NCBI GenBank assembly: GCA_946480485.1
Contig: CAMLJW010000351.1
Location: forward strand, 1-5,740
DNA length: 5,740 bases
Reading direction: 5' to 3'
Origin: an uncultured Streptomyces sp.
GTDB taxonomy: Bacteria; Actinomycetota; Actinomycetes; Streptomycetales; Streptomycetaceae
The notes beneath the pieces are model-generated. The model saw nothing but the letters and a program-made list of their open reading frames with translations, was not told where the DNA came from and did no database searches. Shown here piece by piece: positions 2-5,740 of the stretch. Every line of letters begins with the position of its first letter. The first letter of the stretch is position 1. A program made the position numbers and the translations under genes.

Positions 2-1255
2 GCGACGCGAGCCGTCGCCGCACCTACGCCCACCCCCACGCCCAGTAACGACCCTTGCGACCTTATTCATGGCCCCGCCAAGGACTACTGCGAAGACGGC
101 AGCGGCTCCGGCGGAGGCGGAGGCGGCGGCACCCTGACCGACCCCACCTCCACCCTCGACCCCCTCTCCTCCCTCGCCAAGGGCTGTGCCGACGCCGCGT
201 CCTGGACCATCGACAAGCTCAGCGAGGCCGTGAAGGAGACGGCGAACGTCGACTTCACGAACCCGAAGTTCCTGCAGCAGTACGCCGTCGTGTTCGCGGC
301 GTCGGCGATTCTGACCCTGCTCCTGTGGCTGCTGGCAGTGGCCAAGCGGGCCGTTCGCGGTGTGCCGCTCACCACGGCCATCTCGGAGGCGATCGGGTTC
401 CTCTGGCTGACGGTTCTCGCGTCCGCGTTCACGCCGCTGATCCTCTACACCGTCGTCTCGGCGACCGACGGCGTCGCGGAGGTCCTGGCCAAGACGACCG
501 GCAACCAGACGGATCAGTTCTTCGGAAACTTCTCCGGAGCCCTGAGCAAGGGCGAGGACATCGGCGGCGGGCCCATCATGCTCATCGTCGTGTCCCTGGT
601 CTCGATCCTCGCGGCCGGAGTGCTGTGGCTGGAGCTCGTCATCCGCGCCGCCCTGCTCTACGTCGGCGCGCTGCTCGGCACCGTCGTGTACGCGGGGCTC
701 GTCGACAAGAACCTGTGGGGCCACGTCCGCCGCTGGGCCGGCATCATGATCGCGGTGATTCTGGTGAAACCAGTCATCGTGATCGTGCTGGGGCTGGCCG
801 GTGCGCTGGCCGGTGAGGACGGGCCGGACGCCTTCTCGGCCGTCGTCTCCGGGCTCGCCATCATCCTGATGGCCATCTTCGCGAGCGCGATGATCTACCG
901 GTTCGTACCGGGCTTCGGCGACGAGATCGCGAACTCCCGGAACAACCGCATCATGCAGGGCGCCGAAGGCAAGGCCGCGGCCGTCATCAGCTCCCCGGCG
1001 ACCCTCGTCGCCCAGGGCATCAAGACGCACAGCACCCGGGCGGACAGCGGCGGCGGCAACCAGGGCGCCGGCGCCCGCCCCGCCAACCCCGCCTCCGGCG
1101 GCGTGGCCGCCCACAGCTCACGCCCGTCCTCCCACGGCGGCGGCGGATCCGGCTCCTCCGCCCCGCCCCCGCCGCGCAGCAGCACGGCGAACACCCCCCA
1201 CGCCGGCAACAACCGCAACAGCAGTACCAACCGCTCGGGAGGTGAAGGGCGTTGA
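2..1255 (+). CDS. VirB6/TrbL-like polytopic membrane protein, SCO6881-type (5' end outside window)
   Basis: The frame is open from the first bases of the window to TGA at 1253-1255, giving 417 visible residues; the true start lies upstream. The visible N-terminus reads ATRAVAA, then an alternating Pro-Thr stretch. This resembles the end of a signal peptide with an Ala-x-Ala cleavage site, but the hydrophobic core is not in view. Next come Cys19 and Cys30, a seven-Gly run at residues 37-43, and Cys62. Six hydrophobic segments follow, at about residues 95-113, 129-153, 191-210, 214-234, 244-268 and 279-298. The tail from about residue 347 is rich in Gly, Ser, Pro, Asn and His and is probably disordered. 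Exported N-terminus, six spans and a position beside VirB4-like genes fit a VirB6/TrbL-type channel component of a type IV secretion-like system. I recognise the core as the SCO6881-type family of Streptomyces; the VirB6 role is inferred from topology and context. The last four bases overlap the next gene, so the two are probably translated together. Confidence 0.88.
   Translation, partial: ATRAVAAPTPTPTPSNDPCDLIHGPAKDYCEDGSGSGGGGGGGTLTDPTSTLDPLSSLAKGCADAASWTIDKLSEAVKETANVDFTNPKFLQQYAVVFAASAILTLLLWLLAVAKRAVRGVPLTTAISEAIGFLWLTVLASAFTPLILYTVVSATDGVAEVLAKTTGNQTDQFFGNFSGALSKGEDIGGGPIMLIVVSLVSILAAGVLWLELVIRAALLYVGALLGTVVYAGLVDKNLWGHVRRWAGIMIAVILVKPVIVIVLGLAGALAGEDGPDAFSAVVSGLAIILMAIFASAMIYRFVPGFGDEIANSRNNRIMQGAEGKAAAVISSPATLVAQGIKTHSTRADSGGGNQGAGARPANPASGGVAAHSSRPSSHGGGGSGSSAPPPPRSSTANTPHAGNNRNSSTNRSGGEGR
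1238..1245 (+). promoter_or_regulatory. Ribosome binding site for the TTG-started SCO6880-family gene
   Basis: GGAGGTGA is close to a perfect match to the anti-Shine-Dalgarno sequence and ends 6 bases before TTG at 1252. It lies inside the last codons of the upstream gene. It decides the start: the next in-frame candidate, ATG at 1270 (codon 7), would be 24 bases from this site, and I see no better site of its own. Confidence 0.8.
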
Positions 1256-2811
1256 CGACCCAGTCCCACATGTCCCATCCGGTCACGCCCCGCCGTACAT
1301 ATCTGATCGGCCGCGCCCGGCCGAACGCGATCGTCGGCAAGAACCGTGAAACCGGTGAGATCGCGCTGATCATCACGGGCGCGTTCCTGGGCATGATGTG
1401 CGGCCTGCTCGTTCCCGTGCTCTCCCTGCGCATCGTCCTGCTGGTGGGCCTCCCGATGCTGGCGCTCGCCGCGGTGTACGTGCCGTACAAGCGCCGTACG
1501 TTCTACAAGTGGTTCGAGATCAACCGCAGTTACAAGCGGACACTCCGCCAGGGCACGACGTACCGCAGCAACGTCATGGAGGCCGGTACCGGCATCGACG
1601 GCCGTGAGGTCGAGATCGGCCCGCCTCCGGGGATCGGACGCATCATGTGGCTGGCGGCGCCCTTCGGACCCGACGAGATCGCCGTCCTCCTGCACGCCGA
1701 CCGCCGCACGGTCACGGCCGCGATCGAGATCGAGGGCCCGGGTGTCGGACTGCACGACTCGGAGGACCAGGAAGCCCTCGTCGACCGGTTCGGCACGCTC
1801 CTCAAGCACGTCGCGAACGGCGACGGCTTTGTCACCCGCCTCCAGATGCTCGCCCGCACCCTGCCCGCCGACCCGGACGCCCACGCCAAGGACGTCGCCG
1901 TACGAGGGGACGAGCGCGCCCCCGGCTGGCTGCGGCAGTCGTACGACCAGTTGCAGTCCATGGTGTCCACCAGCAGCGAGCAGCACCGCGCGTACCTGGT
2001 CGCCTGCATGCACTACTCACGGGAACTCGCCGCCGAGGGCCACGCGATGGCACGGGCCGCCCGCCCGCAGGGCGGCAAGAAGCTCGACAAGGACGCGGGG
2101 CTCGCCGTCGTCATGGCGCGTGAACTGACCGACATCTGCTCGCGGTTGCAGGAGGCCGACATCCGCGTACGGCAGCCGCTGGGGCAGGGGCGCCTGGCCT
2201 CCCTCGTCCACTCCATGTACGACCCGGACCACCAGATCGACCACATCCAGGCCATGACGAGACGCAACGCCTGGCCGGCCGAGCTGGACGCCATGGAGGC
2301 GACGTACCTCCAGGCGAAGACCCGCGAGTCCTCCACCCGCGCGCCCTGGTGCCATGCCACGGCCTGGGTGAAGGAGTGGCCGATGACGCCGGTCGGGGTC
2401 AACTTCCTCGCGCCCCTCCTGGTCCACACCCCGGATGTCATCCGCACGGTCGCCGTCACCATGGACCTCGAACCCACCGAGATCGCCATCGAGCGGATGC
2501 TGACCGAGAAGACGAACGACGAGGCGGAGGCCAGCCGCCAGGCCAAGATGAACCGCACCATCGACCCGCGCGACATCGCCTCACACAACCGCCTGGACCA
2601 GCGGGGCGAGGACCTCGCGAGCGGCGCGGCCGGCGTCAACCTCGTCGGCTACATCACCGTCTCGTCCCGCTCCCCCGAGGCACTCGCCCGCGACAAGCGG
2701 ACGATCCGCGCCTCGGCAGGCAAGTCGTATCTGAAACTCGAGTGGTGCGATCGCGAGCACCACAGGGCCTTCGTCAACACGCTCCCGTTCGCGACCGGCA
2801 TCCGGAGGTAG
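1252..2811 (+). CDS. SCO6880-family protein: membrane hairpin plus VirB4 N-terminal-like domain
   Basis: This 519-residue protein starts at TTG 1252, which overlaps the upstream TGA (TTGA). Residues 1-35 are basic and cytoplasmic-looking. Two hydrophobic helices at about 36-56 and 60-79 form a hairpin, followed by a basic aromatic stretch at 80-96. The rest is soluble. Residues 120-210 contain a GPPPGIGR turn, a strand pattern around 141-162 and an ARTLP motif at 201-205, resembling the N-terminal domain of VirB4-type proteins. The C-terminus ends at NTLPFATGIRR, about where the ATPase domain begins in a one-piece VirB4. I recognise the family as SCO6880 of Streptomyces. My inference is that it combines a VirB3/PrgI-like membrane hairpin with the non-catalytic half of VirB4, and binds the ATPase encoded 6 bases downstream, anchoring it to the membrane. 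It has no P-loop; AGKS at 489-492 lacks the upstream Gly. Codon use is typical high GC and the frame is intact. The family call is firm; the molecular role is inferred. Confidence 0.93.
   Translation: MTTQSHMSHPVTPRRTYLIGRARPNAIVGKNRETGEIALIITGAFLGMMCGLLVPVLSLRIVLLVGLPMLALAAVYVPYKRRTFYKWFEINRSYKRTLRQGTTYRSNVMEAGTGIDGREVEIGPPPGIGRIMWLAAPFGPDEIAVLLHADRRTVTAAIEIEGPGVGLHDSEDQEALVDRFGTLLKHVANGDGFVTRLQMLARTLPADPDAHAKDVAVRGDERAPGWLRQSYDQLQSMVSTSSEQHRAYLVACMHYSRELAAEGHAMARAARPQGGKKLDKDAGLAVVMARELTDICSRLQEADIRVRQPLGQGRLASLVHSMYDPDHQIDHIQAMTRRNAWPAELDAMEATYLQAKTRESSTRAPWCHATAWVKEWPMTPVGVNFLAPLLVHTPDVIRTVAVTMDLEPTEIAIERMLTEKTNDEAEASRQAKMNRTIDPRDIASHNRLDQRGEDLASGAAGVNLVGYITVSSRSPEALARDKRTIRASAGKSYLKLEWCDREHHRAFVNTLPFATGIRR
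2804..2808 (+). promoter_or_regulatory. Ribosome binding site for the VirB4-like ATPase gene
   Basis: GGAGG overlaps the final Arg codons of the SCO6880-family gene and lies 9 bases before ATG 2818. The upstream stop (TAG 2809-2811) sits between this site and the start, so ribosomes finishing gene 2 can restart on gene 3. This suggests the two products are made in matched amounts. Confidence 0.78.
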
Positions 2812-2817
2812 GACTCT

Positions 2818-4239
2818 ATGCGGGATCCGCTGTCCGTCCTCACCGAAGCCTTCACGTCGTTCCTGTTCGGCAAGGTGGAGACGACCCGGCTGCCGGTGCG
2901 TACGTCCACCGGGCAGGCCCAGGCCGTCTACCTGCCGACCGCCGCGCCCGGCCTCGGCGACTCCGGCGTCATCATCGGCCGCGAGGTCTACTCCGGGAAG
3001 GGCTACATCTACGACCCCTTCCAGTTGTACGGGCAACAGCTCCCGGCGCCCCACTGGCTGGTGCTCGGCGAGTCCGGAAACGGCAAGTCGGCCCTGGAGA
3101 AGACTTACGTACTACGGCAGTTGAGGTTCCGTGACCGGCAGGTCGTGGTGCTCGACGCACAGGGTGAGGACGGGGTCGGTGAGTGGAACCTCATCGCCCA
3201 GGAGCTGGGGATAACCCCCATCCGGCTCGACCCGACGGCGGCCCTGGACATGGGCATCCGGCTCAACCCGCTCGACCCGTCGATCACGACGACCGGGCAG
3301 CTGGCCCTGCTCCGGACGATCATCGAGGTGGCGATGGGGCACGGGCTCGACGAGCGCTCGGGCTTCGCCCTGAAGGTCGCGCACGCGTACGTCAACGAGT
3401 CGATCGTGGAACGCCAGCCCGTCCTGACGGACATCGTGGAGCAACTGCGCCATCCCGAGCCGGATTCGGCGGAGGCGATGAACGTCGCCATCGACGACGT
3501 ACGGGCCTGGGGCCTGGACGTGGCCCTGGTGCTCGACCGTCTGGTGGACGGTGACCTGCGGGGCATGTTCGACGGCCCGACAACGGTCGGTATCGACCTG
3601 GACGCGCCACTCATCGTGTTCGACCTGTCCCACATAGACCGCAACTCGATCGCGATGCCGATCCTGATGGCGATCGTGGGCGTGTGGCTGGAGCACACCT
3701 GGATCCGCCCCGACCGGAAGAAGCGCATCTTCCTGGTCGAGGAGGCCTGGCACATCATCAACAGCCCGTTCGTGGCCCAGCTCTTCCAGCGCCTGCTGAA
3801 GTTCGGCCGCCGCCTCGGCCTGTCCTTCGTCGCCGTCGTCCACCACCTGTCCGACGTCGTCGACGGCGCGGCGGCGAAGGAGGCCGCGGCGATCCTGAAG
3901 ATGGCCTCGACCCGGACGATCTACGCCCAGAAGGCCGACGAGGCGAGAGCGACGGGCCGGGTGCTGGGCCTGCCCAGATGGGCGGTGGAGATCATCCCGT
4001 CGTTGACTCCCGGCATCGCCGTGTGGGACGTCAACGGCAACGTCCAGGTGGTCAAACACCTGATCACCGAGACGGAACGCCCCCTCGTCTTCACCGACCG
4101 CGCCATGACCGAGTCCTCCGCCGATCTGTCGGACGACGCGCTGCGGGACGCCGAGTTGGAGGCGGAGGAGCGCGCGGCGGCGTTCATGGAACATCACCTG
4201 AGCGATCTCGACGACCCGTCCGAGTCCACGGTGGCGTGA
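2818..4239 (+). CDS. VirB4-like (FtsK/HerA superfamily) secretion ATPase
   Basis: This complete 473-residue protein starts at ATG 2818 behind a GGAGG site. It is probably the energy-supplying motor of the type IV secretion-like apparatus, hydrolysing ATP at the inner face of the membrane. Walker A is GESGNGKS at residues 84-91 (Lys90, Ser91). The FDGPT motif typical of VirB4-type proteins is at 251-255. The Walker B region is RIFLVEEAW at 303-311, with Glu308-Glu309 where VirB4 proteins usually have Asp-Glu. A basic KFGRRLG stretch at 328-334 matches the place of the conserved arginine region. It is followed by AVVHHLSDV at 339-347, where VirB4 relatives usually have a Gln. ARATGRVLGLP at 377-386 and the WDVNGNVQ strand region complete the core. 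There is no membrane segment, and the large N-terminal domain of a full-length VirB4 (often about 800 residues) is absent, apparently supplied by the preceding gene. The acidic tail (430-473) is probably flexible. The ATPase call is firm; the transported substrate is unknown. Confidence 0.94.
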   Translation: MRDPLSVLTEAFTSFLFGKVETTRLPVRTSTGQAQAVYLPTAAPGLGDSGVIIGREVYSGKGYIYDPFQLYGQQLPAPHWLVLGESGNGKSALEKTYVLRQLRFRDRQVVVLDAQGEDGVGEWNLIAQELGITPIRLDPTAALDMGIRLNPLDPSITTTGQLALLRTIIEVAMGHGLDERSGFALKVAHAYVNESIVERQPVLTDIVEQLRHPEPDSAEAMNVAIDDVRAWGLDVALVLDRLVDGDLRGMFDGPTTVGIDLDAPLIVFDLSHIDRNSIAMPILMAIVGVWLEHTWIRPDRKKRIFLVEEAWHIINSPFVAQLFQRLLKFGRRLGLSFVAVVHHLSDVVDGAAAKEAAAILKMASTRTIYAQKADEARATGRVLGLPRWAVEIIPSLTPGIAVWDVNGNVQVVKHLITETERPLVFTDRAMTESSADLSDDALRDAELEAEERAAAFMEHHLSDLDDPSESTVA

Positions 4240-4282: not shown

Positions 4283-5740
4283 ATGAGACCGGACGAGCGG
4301 CGCCGCGAGGGCGAACGGGGTGAAGGAGGCGTTTCCGACGGCCTGTTGGTCGGGGGGCTCGCGTTCCTGCTGGCCATAAGCCTGCTGGTGTGGTCGGCGA
4401 CGGGCCTGGCGGGCCTCTTCGACCAGGGCTCCTGGCCCTCCCAGGTCACCTTCGGCCGTACGCCGCTCGCGATGCGTCACCTGATCCAGCAACCGCACGA
4501 CATCGCGGGAGCGTGGCCAAACACCCCGGAGGTCCAACTCTCGGGATACGGGCTCTTCTGGGGGCTGTTCATCTCCCAGTTGCTGGTCCTCCTGGTCCTC
4601 ACCGTGTTCGTGATGGGGGCGGTGGTGAGGTGGAGAGCGGGGAGAGCGAGGAGAGCGGCCAGGCGAAAGGCGGCGGCCTTCGACTCGGGAGGTCGGCCTG
4701 AAGGTACGGCGGGCTCGGTGGGTCGGCCTGGACGTGCCGCCGGCTCGGGCGTTGCGACTGAGGCCGCGTCCGGCTCGGGTTCGCCTGGGGCCGGCGCAGG
4801 GCTTCCGCCTGGGGACGCGGCGGGCTCGGGCCTCTCGCCAACGGGCGGACCGGGCCTTCGGCCTGCAGACGCGCCCGGCGCAGGCTACGCGCCCGGGGAG
4901 ACATCCGGATCAGCGCTTCCGTCTGCGGGTGCCGGCTCAGGCTTTCCGCCTGAGGTCGGCTCCGATCCGGCCGCTTCGTCGGTGGCCGCTTCGGTGGCCG
5001 CTTCCTCGGGGGCCTCTTCGCACGTAGGGGCTCCGCACGCAGGCACTCCGCACGCGGCTTCCTCGGGGCCGAAGCGCCCGCTCGCCGCCACTCCGCCGGC
5101 GGCAAACTCCGGCACGGCCGGTCATCTCCGAGCGGGCGCCTCGGGCCCGACAACCACCCCCCTTCCCCCGGCGGCGAAGCGACCGGTTGAGAGGGCCTCG
5201 TATACGGCCGGCAGTAAACGGATGGGCGGATGGGAAACCATGCGCGCCGAAGGCGCGGCGACGGCCCCCGCCCCCGTTCACACCCTTCGCGGCCCACGGG
5301 TCCTCGGCCCCCCGGAAACCCGCCACCCCCTGGCCGGCGAGGCGGTACGAGACGCCGAGGGTCCCGCCCTCGTCATCACCTCGAACCCCGCCCTCTGGTC
5401 GGAAACCAAGGACGCCCGGGCGAAACTCGGCCCAGTCCTCCTCTACGACCCCTCCCACCTCTGCGACACTCCGGCACGCCTGCACTGGTCCCCCTCAGCC
5501 GGCTGCGCGAACAAGGACATTGCCAAGGCCCGGGCGGCAGCTCTCCTCGCGCCGGTGCGGCCCACCGCGAAGATCGACCAGATGGTCGCCGACGTCGCGG
5601 AGACACTCCTTCGCAGCTACCTGCACGCTGCCGCCGCTGACGGCCGCACCATCCGGCACCTCCACCGCTGGGCCCAGGGCGCCCAGGTCCAAGAGGTCGT
5701 ACGCATCCTCCGTGCGAACCCCAAGGCGGCCTCCGGCGCC
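4283..5740 (+). CDS. VirD4/T4CP-like membrane protein with degenerate P-loop (3' end outside window)
   Basis: The frame is open from ATG 4283 to the last base, giving 486 codons with no stop. The start is the only one available: an in-frame TGA lies at 4265-4267 and no ATG or GTG falls between. Residues 1-19 are charged. Two membrane spans lie at about 20-45 and 89-114, with a loop of some 43 residues between them, the usual N-terminal layout of VirD4 coupling proteins. A basic stretch (116-129) follows the second span, then a Gly/Ala/Pro/Ser linker to about residue 335. From 338 the sequence again looks folded: GPALVITSNP (360-369), KLGPVLLYDP (381-390), LHWSPSAGC (400-408) and RWAQGAQVQEVVRILR (462-477). 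These match the order VTSTKP, GPVxVFDP, RWSPxxGC and the helical domain of actinobacterial VirD4/TraG proteins. The segment where Walker A should precede GPALVITS reads GPPETRHP (342-349) and lacks GK[ST]. It probably works with the VirB4-like pair upstream, perhaps as a substrate receptor. The family call rests on motif order; the catalytic state is inferred. Confidence 0.85.
   Translation, partial: MRPDERRREGERGEGGVSDGLLVGGLAFLLAISLLVWSATGLAGLFDQGSWPSQVTFGRTPLAMRHLIQQPHDIAGAWPNTPEVQLSGYGLFWGLFISQLLVLLVLTVFVMGAVVRWRAGRARRAARRKAAAFDSGGRPEGTAGSVGRPGRAAGSGVATEAASGSGSPGAGAGLPPGDAAGSGLSPTGGPGLRPADAPGAGYAPGETSGSALPSAGAGSGFPPEVGSDPAASSVAASVAASSGASSHVGAPHAGTPHAASSGPKRPLAATPPAANSGTAGHLRAGASGPTTTPLPPAAKRPVERASYTAGSKRMGGWETMRAEGAATAPAPVHTLRGPRVLGPPETRHPLAGEAVRDAEGPALVITSNPALWSETKDARAKLGPVLLYDPSHLCDTPARLHWSPSAGCANKDIAKARAAALLAPVRPTAKIDQMVADVAETLLRSYLHAAAADGRTIRHLHRWAQGAQVQEVVRILRANPKAASGA
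4628..4666 (+). other. Cluster of rare AGA/AGG arginine codons after the second membrane span
   Basis: In residues 116-128 of the VirD4-like protein, six of seven arginines use AGG or AGA (116, 118, 121, 123, 124, 127) and the seventh uses CGA. In high-GC actinomycetes CGC/CGG/CGT predominate, and the other genes in this window almost always use them. The stretch encodes the positively charged cytoplasmic end of the second membrane span. The purine-rich run is visible directly; an effect on translation speed is only a possibility. Confidence 0.6.
4700..4960 (+). repeat. Degenerate ~10-residue Gly/Ala/Ser/Pro repeats in the linker
   Basis: Residues 140-226 of the VirD4-like protein show a recurring, strongly diverged unit of roughly 10-12 residues. 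Its pattern is a small-residue core (AGSG, GAGAG, SGS) followed by a bulky residue and Pro: GLPPGDA, GLSPTGG, GLRPADA, GYAPGET, ALPSAGA, GFPPEVG. At DNA level the same units recur as GGCTCGGG and CTTCCGCCTG-like words. This suggests growth by tandem duplication followed by drift. The segment is probably a disordered tether between the membrane spans and the cytoplasmic domain. Confidence 0.6.
4979..5002 (+). repeat. Perfect 12-bp tandem duplication (two copies)
   Basis: TCGGTGGCCGCT occurs twice in direct succession, encoding SVAA-SVAA at residues 233-240 of the VirD4-like protein. The bases just before (GCCGCTTCG) echo the unit. It is in frame and sits in the low-complexity linker, so copy number could change without breaking the gene. 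Confidence 0.8.
5027..5056 (+). repeat. Imperfect 15-bp tandem duplication (two copies)
   Basis: Two adjacent 15-base units encode GAPHA and GTPHA (residues 249-258 of the VirD4-like protein). They share the CTCCGCACGC core and differ at a few positions. This is a second in-frame duplication in the linker, 24 bases after the perfect 12-bp one. Confidence 0.65.

Follow-up and report, generated by a model that had tools for sequence, protein, structure and literature searches.

Which parts of its coupling protein does a type IV secretion-like machine need? A natural experiment on this question is offered by the last gene of a 5,740-nucleotide (nt) stretch of DNA from an uncultured Streptomyces sp. 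(contig CAMLJW010000351.1, assembly GCA_946480485.1). We call this whole stretch the window. By gene order and the published description, the gene is placed as an orthologue of cmdA, which in Streptomyces is the final gene of the chromosomal cmd operon. Sequence and predicted structure make it very probable that CmdA is a pseudo-ATPase derived from a type IV coupling protein (T4CP). The gene has the following features.

4283..5740, + strand: gene in the cmdA slot, encoding the putative T4CP-derived protein; open to the window end, with the 3' end cut and 486 amino acids (aa) visible; operon order as in PMC2782261
4325..4423, + strand: hydrophobic segment 1 of CmdA, residues 15-47 (Kyte-Doolittle scan)
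4538..4642, + strand: hydrophobic segment 2 of CmdA, residues 86-120 (Kyte-Doolittle scan)
4643..5293, + strand: Ala/Gly/Ser/Pro-rich linker of CmdA, about residues 121-337 (composition of residues 120-330)
5294..5740, + strand: start of the predicted RecA-like T4CP body of CmdA, residues 338-486 (alignment; model of the orthologue L004)
5306..5329, + strand: eroded P-loop slot GPPETRHP, residues 342-349 (alignment and reading of the slot across the family)

The P-loop slot of CmdA

A sequence-only reading of the window had placed GPPETRHP, followed by GPALVITSNP, where a coupling protein would have its P-loop, and had found no GK[ST] in the visible residues. Those coordinates are exact, and not even a GK occurs anywhere in the 486 residues. 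GPPETRHP does not match GxxxxGK[ST], the Walker A pattern of a working T4CP. The N-terminal membrane helices that are a T4CP trait are represented by the two hydrophobic segments.

The protein beyond position 5740 was read from orthologous loci. A scan of genome contigs with the C-terminal stretch gave 103 relatives, the best 80 of which were kept as loci. All carry Streptomyces names except L060, which was deposited as Kitasatospora aureofaciens. The frame is uninterrupted through the domain in the 80 loci; four of these (L001, L018, L023, and L062) begin at a contig edge that falls within the domain or beside it. A canonical motif beyond the window end would have overturned the sequence-only reading; none lies downstream in the 80 loci. 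GK[ST] occurs somewhere in the frame in five of the 80, always over 120 residues upstream and never at the slot itself. Because L018 and L062 start past the slot, 78 of the 80 loci cover it, and the P-loop is replaced in every one of these. The replacement in all 78, and in 120 of 120 database relatives among the matches listed, leaves virtually no room for a sequencing or frame error in the window that masks a normal P-loop; nothing was found in favor of such an error. L060 and L112 have a GKR upstream, outside the slot.

We aligned the slot and the Walker B region of the window and 79 loci, leaving out L056, in which the anchor pattern is absent. The earlier reading had asked whether the slot is fixed without Lys and Thr and whether Walker B is lost as well. 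The slot is variable. The window does have a GPP remnant, but GPP is not conserved: among 78 sequences, the commonest residue reaches frequencies of only 0.74 at the G, 0.59 at the first P, and 0.60 at the second. The mean frequency of the top residue is 0.65 in the slot versus 0.85 in the body (274 columns). Arg347 (nt 5321-5323), located in the first turn of a helix in the model, is the only nearly fixed slot residue (77 of the 78 sequences covering the slot). Therefore, the slot is not frozen as GPP, yet one arginine in it is. Walker B is changed too, from DE to DD: its second residue is Asp in 79 of 79 aligned orthologues, and the window itself ends before this motif. Judged from the orthologues, CmdA thus lacks the pairing of Walker B Asp and catalytic Glu of a working T4CP. 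Among orthologues, the slot takes the forms GSPGTGKS, GPPRSGRT, GPPGTGVA, APPGARAT, and SDKGKR, which agrees with the proposal that a real P-loop was eroded.

Probable descent from conjugative coupling proteins

A tblastn search against plasmids returned 18 records; for 16 of the matches, the annotation of the gene is TraM recognition or type IV conjugative DNA transfer protein. Nine of the 18 records were fetched and aligned with seven CmdA proteins. All nine plasmid relatives have GK[STG] preceded by G/A-x4 at the slot position, about 20 residues before a TTS- or TSS-like strand, and CmdA has one or two fewer residues at the slot in this alignment. A Walker A-type GK and a DE are present in 9 of 9 plasmid proteins, and neither is found in the seven CmdA proteins, which terminate shortly past Walker B. 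The all-alpha-domain part of the T4CP fold is present in the CmdA alignment. Gene order around the plasmid genes was read from annotation. A series of SCO6880 family, ATPase, and T4CP genes is annotated in three of the nine records. In plasmid L084, an ATP/GTP-binding protein directly precedes the T4CP, and in L088 an SCO6880-family gene and a hypothetical gene do so; the other four records have no such neighbor annotated nearby.

The same contrast holds among the matches listed in larger sets. Walker A (pattern with GK[STG]) is present in 118 of 120 T4CP relatives versus 0 of 120 CmdA relatives, so the difference at the slot is not due to chance. The Walker B Asp is followed by Glu in all 114 scored T4CPs (6 of 120 were unscored) and by a second Asp in 119 of 120 CmdA relatives. 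Past this second residue, 45 to 48 residues follow in CmdA versus a median of 192 (41 to 288) in T4CPs. In the database, the CmdA relatives (P0001-P0120) go by 'type VI secretion protein', by 'P-loop NTPase family protein', or by conjugative DNA transfer protein, though they have no P-loop; the first two names mislead.

The window CmdA, cut by the window end, matched no Pfam or NCBIfam family at E values up to 0.1. The full-length orthologue L004 reaches PF12696 barely above its cut-off (22.3 versus 22 bits). The fold predicted for L004 is the RecA-like T4CP fold with an inserted all-alpha domain, so the model did not return the non-RecA-like domain that would have spoken against the sequence-only reading. 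In this model the phosphate loop has two residues, versus six in a Walker A-bearing orthologue.

We class CmdA as T4CP-derived and not as a working T4CP. Its ancestor would be a VirD4/TrwB-type coupling ATPase, and CmdA occupies the gene slot of actinobacterial plasmid coupling proteins. CmdA has lost Walker A; its orthologues have Asp for the Walker B Glu and lack the C-terminal part of the motor domain, and the RecA-like fold is predicted to persist. In the one open-licence library searched, we recognized no paper describing CmdA as a coupling protein, or any T4CP without Walker A.

Graded loss of CmdA across the family

A CmdA profile was run on 121 genomes of the family, Streptomycetaceae, and 98 had a match of any kind, paralogues included. 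CmdB, the VirB4-like partner, is found in all 121 genomes, at 83 to 98% identity in 119 and in pieces in G027 and G079; second CmdB copies are at most 50% identical. CmdA is found in 86 genomes, directly after CmdB in 84 and on another contig in two (G029 and G068).

The slot was read in 88 fetched loci. Four were excluded: the paralogue L162, which carries AAERMGKT and DE; L248, the same gene as L118; and L184 and L186, whose frames do not cover the slot. Of the remaining 84 slots, Walker A is present in one (L144). In 12 others, GK is retained but R or Q takes the place of S or T after it (L122, L123, L126-L131, L134, L142, L233, and L247), and the other 71 have no GK. L144 is P0241, named Wenjunlia tyrosinilytica. 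Its nearest relatives carry GPPGSGKT (P0242 and P0243), GPPRSGRT or similar (P0245-P0247), APPGARAT (P0244, named Streptomyces capparidis), and GPPGTGVA (P0248, W. vitaminophila).

In G049 and G103 (L150 and L159), CmdA ends at or before Walker B. In G079 (L232), CmdA is split over frames, and in G120 (L186) its frame starts only past the slot; in these two, either the gene is broken or the assembly is wrong. For the 35 genomes without CmdA, and for G079 as a 36th, we read the sequence that follows cmdB. The membrane part alone is kept in seven of the 35, directly after cmdB (L211, L215, L216, and L226-L229), as an open reading frame (ORF) of 149 to 176 aa from stop to stop with 37 to 45% identity to the first 140 residues of the window protein. 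Four of these seven ORFs have TGATG at the stop codon, as if the next gene overlapped. Nothing recognizable as CmdA follows cmdB in the other 28, and a 5'-nucleotidase gene is present in 25 of those 28 stretches (tblastn). Long ORFs after cmdB were considered as replacement coupling proteins and rejected: the three scanned are 5'-nucleotidases, and those in L204, L212, and L230 are unassigned.

Some of the same genomes have paralogous T4CP genes with a Walker A-type GK[ST] elsewhere (L168-L170, L172-L178, and L095-L098), and some of these have a CmdB-like gene nearby that is 47 to 50% identical to the window CmdB. Class-wide, a CmdB match at E values up to 1e-80 was found in 23 of 246 genomes, 22 of which are also in the family sample and one of which (G132, 79% identity) is outside it. 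At that threshold, the cmd operon seems to have been in this lineage for a long time.

Probable order of loss

We built a quick tree of 124 rows (118 different) with the P-loop columns excluded. It does not resolve the basal forks of the CmdA clade or those within the Wenjunlia group, and several of its long branches were flagged. The CmdA rows, 91 in all, form one group with a Shimodaira-Hasegawa-like approximate likelihood ratio test (SH-aLRT) value of 100. The Walker A rows within it fall in a 10-row group (97), alongside GR[ST] and lost forms. The split between Glu and non-Glu at Walker B takes one change over 100 scored rows, and Glu occurs in none of the 83 scored CmdA rows (8 were unscored, the window among them). 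Walker A, with L086 and P0251 rescored, takes two changes without the outgroup row L185 (GSAKT) and three with it. These counts suggest that, if motifs were not regained, the Walker B glutamate was lost before the P-loop, with a minimum of two P-loop losses, one within the Wenjunlia group and the other elsewhere.

CmdA might instead be an atypical ATPase that uses nucleotide via another site or completes a site shared with CmdB. The nearly fixed Arg347 and the 12 of 84 slots that keep GK before R or Q would fit this idea. However, we consider it highly improbable, in view of the modeled phosphate loop of two residues instead of six and the replacement of the Walker B Glu in 83 of 83 scored CmdA-clade rows.

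Selection on CmdA and CmdB

The ratio of nonsynonymous to synonymous substitution rates (dN/dS) was computed for 2768 pairs of 75 loci with dS of 0.1 to 1; the pairs overlap, and no test is attached. The median was 0.265 for the CmdA body versus 0.073 for CmdB, and CmdA was higher in all 2768 pairs. Pooled over 2922 pairs, the slot had a dN/dS of 0.72, the helix after it 0.46, and the remainder 0.28. The body is constrained, the slot much less so, and CmdB much more. The CmdB Walker A motif, GESGNGKS, is present in all 76 loci that reach cmdB.

These values bear on two other explanations. CmdA may be a functionless relic, decaying in place and surviving as the tail of an expressed operon. The graded loss up to absence, the broken or shortened frames in G079, G120, G049, and G103, the nearly free evolution of the slot (0.72), and the lack of an apparent sporulation phenotype (PMC2782261) are what such decay would produce. 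We nevertheless think a relic unlikely, because the body has a dN/dS of 0.265 and many fixed columns, the frames are uninterrupted in 80 loci, and seven genomes retain an ORF for just the membrane segment, at 37 to 45% identity to the window.

Alternatively, as the sequence-only reading had it, the dead T4CP body may be a receptor or scaffold that keeps substrate docking and hands the substrate to CmdB, so that its surface matters. Purifying selection on the body (0.265), its uninterrupted frame in 80 Streptomyces loci, and the predicted T4CP fold with the all-alpha-domain part in the alignment are all in keeping with this. However, 35 of 121 genomes keep cmdB without the RecA-like CmdA body, deletion of cmdA made no apparent difference to sporulation (PMC2782261), dN/dS is higher for the body than for CmdB in every one of the 2768 pairs, and the substrate is hypothetical. 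We consider a receptor improbable, to about the same degree as a relic.

Proposed role of CmdA

The published genetics, as excerpted here, come from Streptomyces coelicolor, where the operon cmdABCDEF corresponds to SCO4126-4131 and CmdB is VirB4-like (PMC2782261). The SCO4126 (cmdA) mutant sporulated apparently like the wild type, whereas the other five single mutants and the whole-operon deletion differed; the cmdA, cmdC, and cmdF mutants had little or no pigment phenotype (PMC2782261). CmdB was located at the membrane, and its K90 and K404 mutants did not complement (PMC2782261). In a transposon screen, the genes named as raising actinorhodin upon insertion include cmdBCDEF and leave out cmdA (PMC6585502). 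Some type IV secretion systems (T4SSs) have no VirD4, and VirB4 is a signature of all (PMC12857230). A Walker A lysine mutant of TrwB had no ATPase activity and no transfer (PMC7431656).

The genetics suggest an accessory role for CmdA (PMC2782261). Taken with the VirD4-less T4SSs and the TrwB mutant, they point to CmdA being an accessory, non-catalytic component of a complex that CmdB drives. We infer that CmdA neither binds nor hydrolyzes ATP in the usual way and that CmdB, whose Walker A motif was kept as the sequence-only reading expected (76 of 76 loci), is the motor. CmdA would be a membrane-anchored subunit of the CmdB complex. Its two-helix membrane module would be the part kept at work longest, and its dead RecA-like body would be a protein-contact surface, kept by most species and shed by some. 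For the accessory mechanism taken by itself, we see the chances as evenly balanced. The explanation as a whole, a T4CP-derived, non-catalytic accessory subunit of the CmdB complex, is the one we slightly favor.

Several points weigh against it. The near fixation of Arg347 (77/78) and the fixed Asp after the Walker B Asp (79/79) are unexplained by pure loss of function. T4CP folds could bind nucleotide atypically, and the loss of nucleotide use by CmdA is itself deduced from sequence. The accessory role comes from the genetics of one species, and cmdA is the last gene. The introduction of PMC6585502 counts CmdA among the modulators ('CmdA to CmdE'). One missing phenotype does not single out cmdA, because the cmdC and cmdF mutants are also without a pigment phenotype (PMC2782261). 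Finally, the contact between CmdA and CmdB is a proposal; the cited papers, as excerpted, describe no such contact.

A wider picture can be offered tentatively, and we would put it a little short of even. A domesticated, conjugation-derived machine of Streptomyces development may run on its VirB4-like motor alone. Its coupling protein may have been dismantled stepwise: first the glutamate, then the P-loop (more than once unless regained), then the motor body, and the membrane module last. The unit still used would be the membrane module and not the ATPase. In one family, a conserved VirB4-like partner is found beside a coupling protein caught at several points of its decay: the motor signature may be intact, only the membrane anchor may be left, or the gene may be absent. 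Single deletions of the cmd genes have been made in S. coelicolor, a tractable laboratory species (PMC2782261).

Gene order of the window

CmdD-, CmdC-, and CmdB-like genes precede CmdA in the window, all in the same direction and in cmd order, although the CmdD match is weak.

2..1255, + strand: gene in the cmdD slot, SCO6881-like membrane protein, 5' end cut by the window (operon position; NF047967 weak, 20.4 bits versus a cut-off of 325)
1252..2811, + strand: gene in the cmdC slot, SCO6880 family (NF042935, 180.1 bits versus a cut-off of 60)
2818..4239, + strand: gene in the cmdB slot, VirB4-like ATPase of 473 aa (Pfam AAA_10, 48.8 bits versus a cut-off of 27.5)
3067..3090, + strand: intact Walker A GESGNGKS of CmdB, residues 84-91, with Lys90 (sequence; motif identical in 76/76 loci)

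NCBIfam VirB4-type models match the window CmdB, but below their cut-offs. In S. coelicolor, SCO6878, SCO6880, and SCO6881 resemble CmdB, CmdC, and CmdD, respectively (PMC2782261). The CmdB positions mutated there were K90 and K404, the latter described as a conserved lysine (PMC2782261). The window CmdB has its Walker lysine at residue 90 and Asp at residue 404, so numbering or conservation differs at 404. Downstream of cmdA, ribosomal RNA (rRNA) genes lie on the opposite strand in four of six loci examined (L002, L013, L064, and L074), with none at threshold in L054 and L009. Many contigs end near cmdA, perhaps because of these rRNA genes.

Comparison with known systems

CmdA (SCO4126) of S. 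coelicolor resembles the window gene in operon position and in being predicted as a membrane protein, and Lys90 of its partner CmdB matches. The excerpts of PMC2782261 call SCO4126 a membrane protein only, with no mention there of T4CP descent or a lost P-loop. The T4CPs of actinobacterial plasmids (TraM recognition/TraG-type, e.g., Citricoccus and S. chartreusis) are like CmdA in gene slot, membrane helices, fold, and body alignment; unlike CmdA, they have Walker A, the Walker B Glu, and a longer C terminus. TrwB of plasmid R388 (1gki and 1e9r) has a functional P-loop, and its chain continues for about 85 residues past the end of CmdA. The CmdA alignment reaches TrwB residue 405, and the W. 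tyrosinilytica orthologue reaches 490. Some T4SSs have a VirB4-type ATPase without a coupling ATPase (PMC12857230), and 28 of the 121 family genomes look so at the cmd locus. Unlike those systems, Streptomycetaceae retain, within one family, the intermediates between the presence and the absence of the T4CP.
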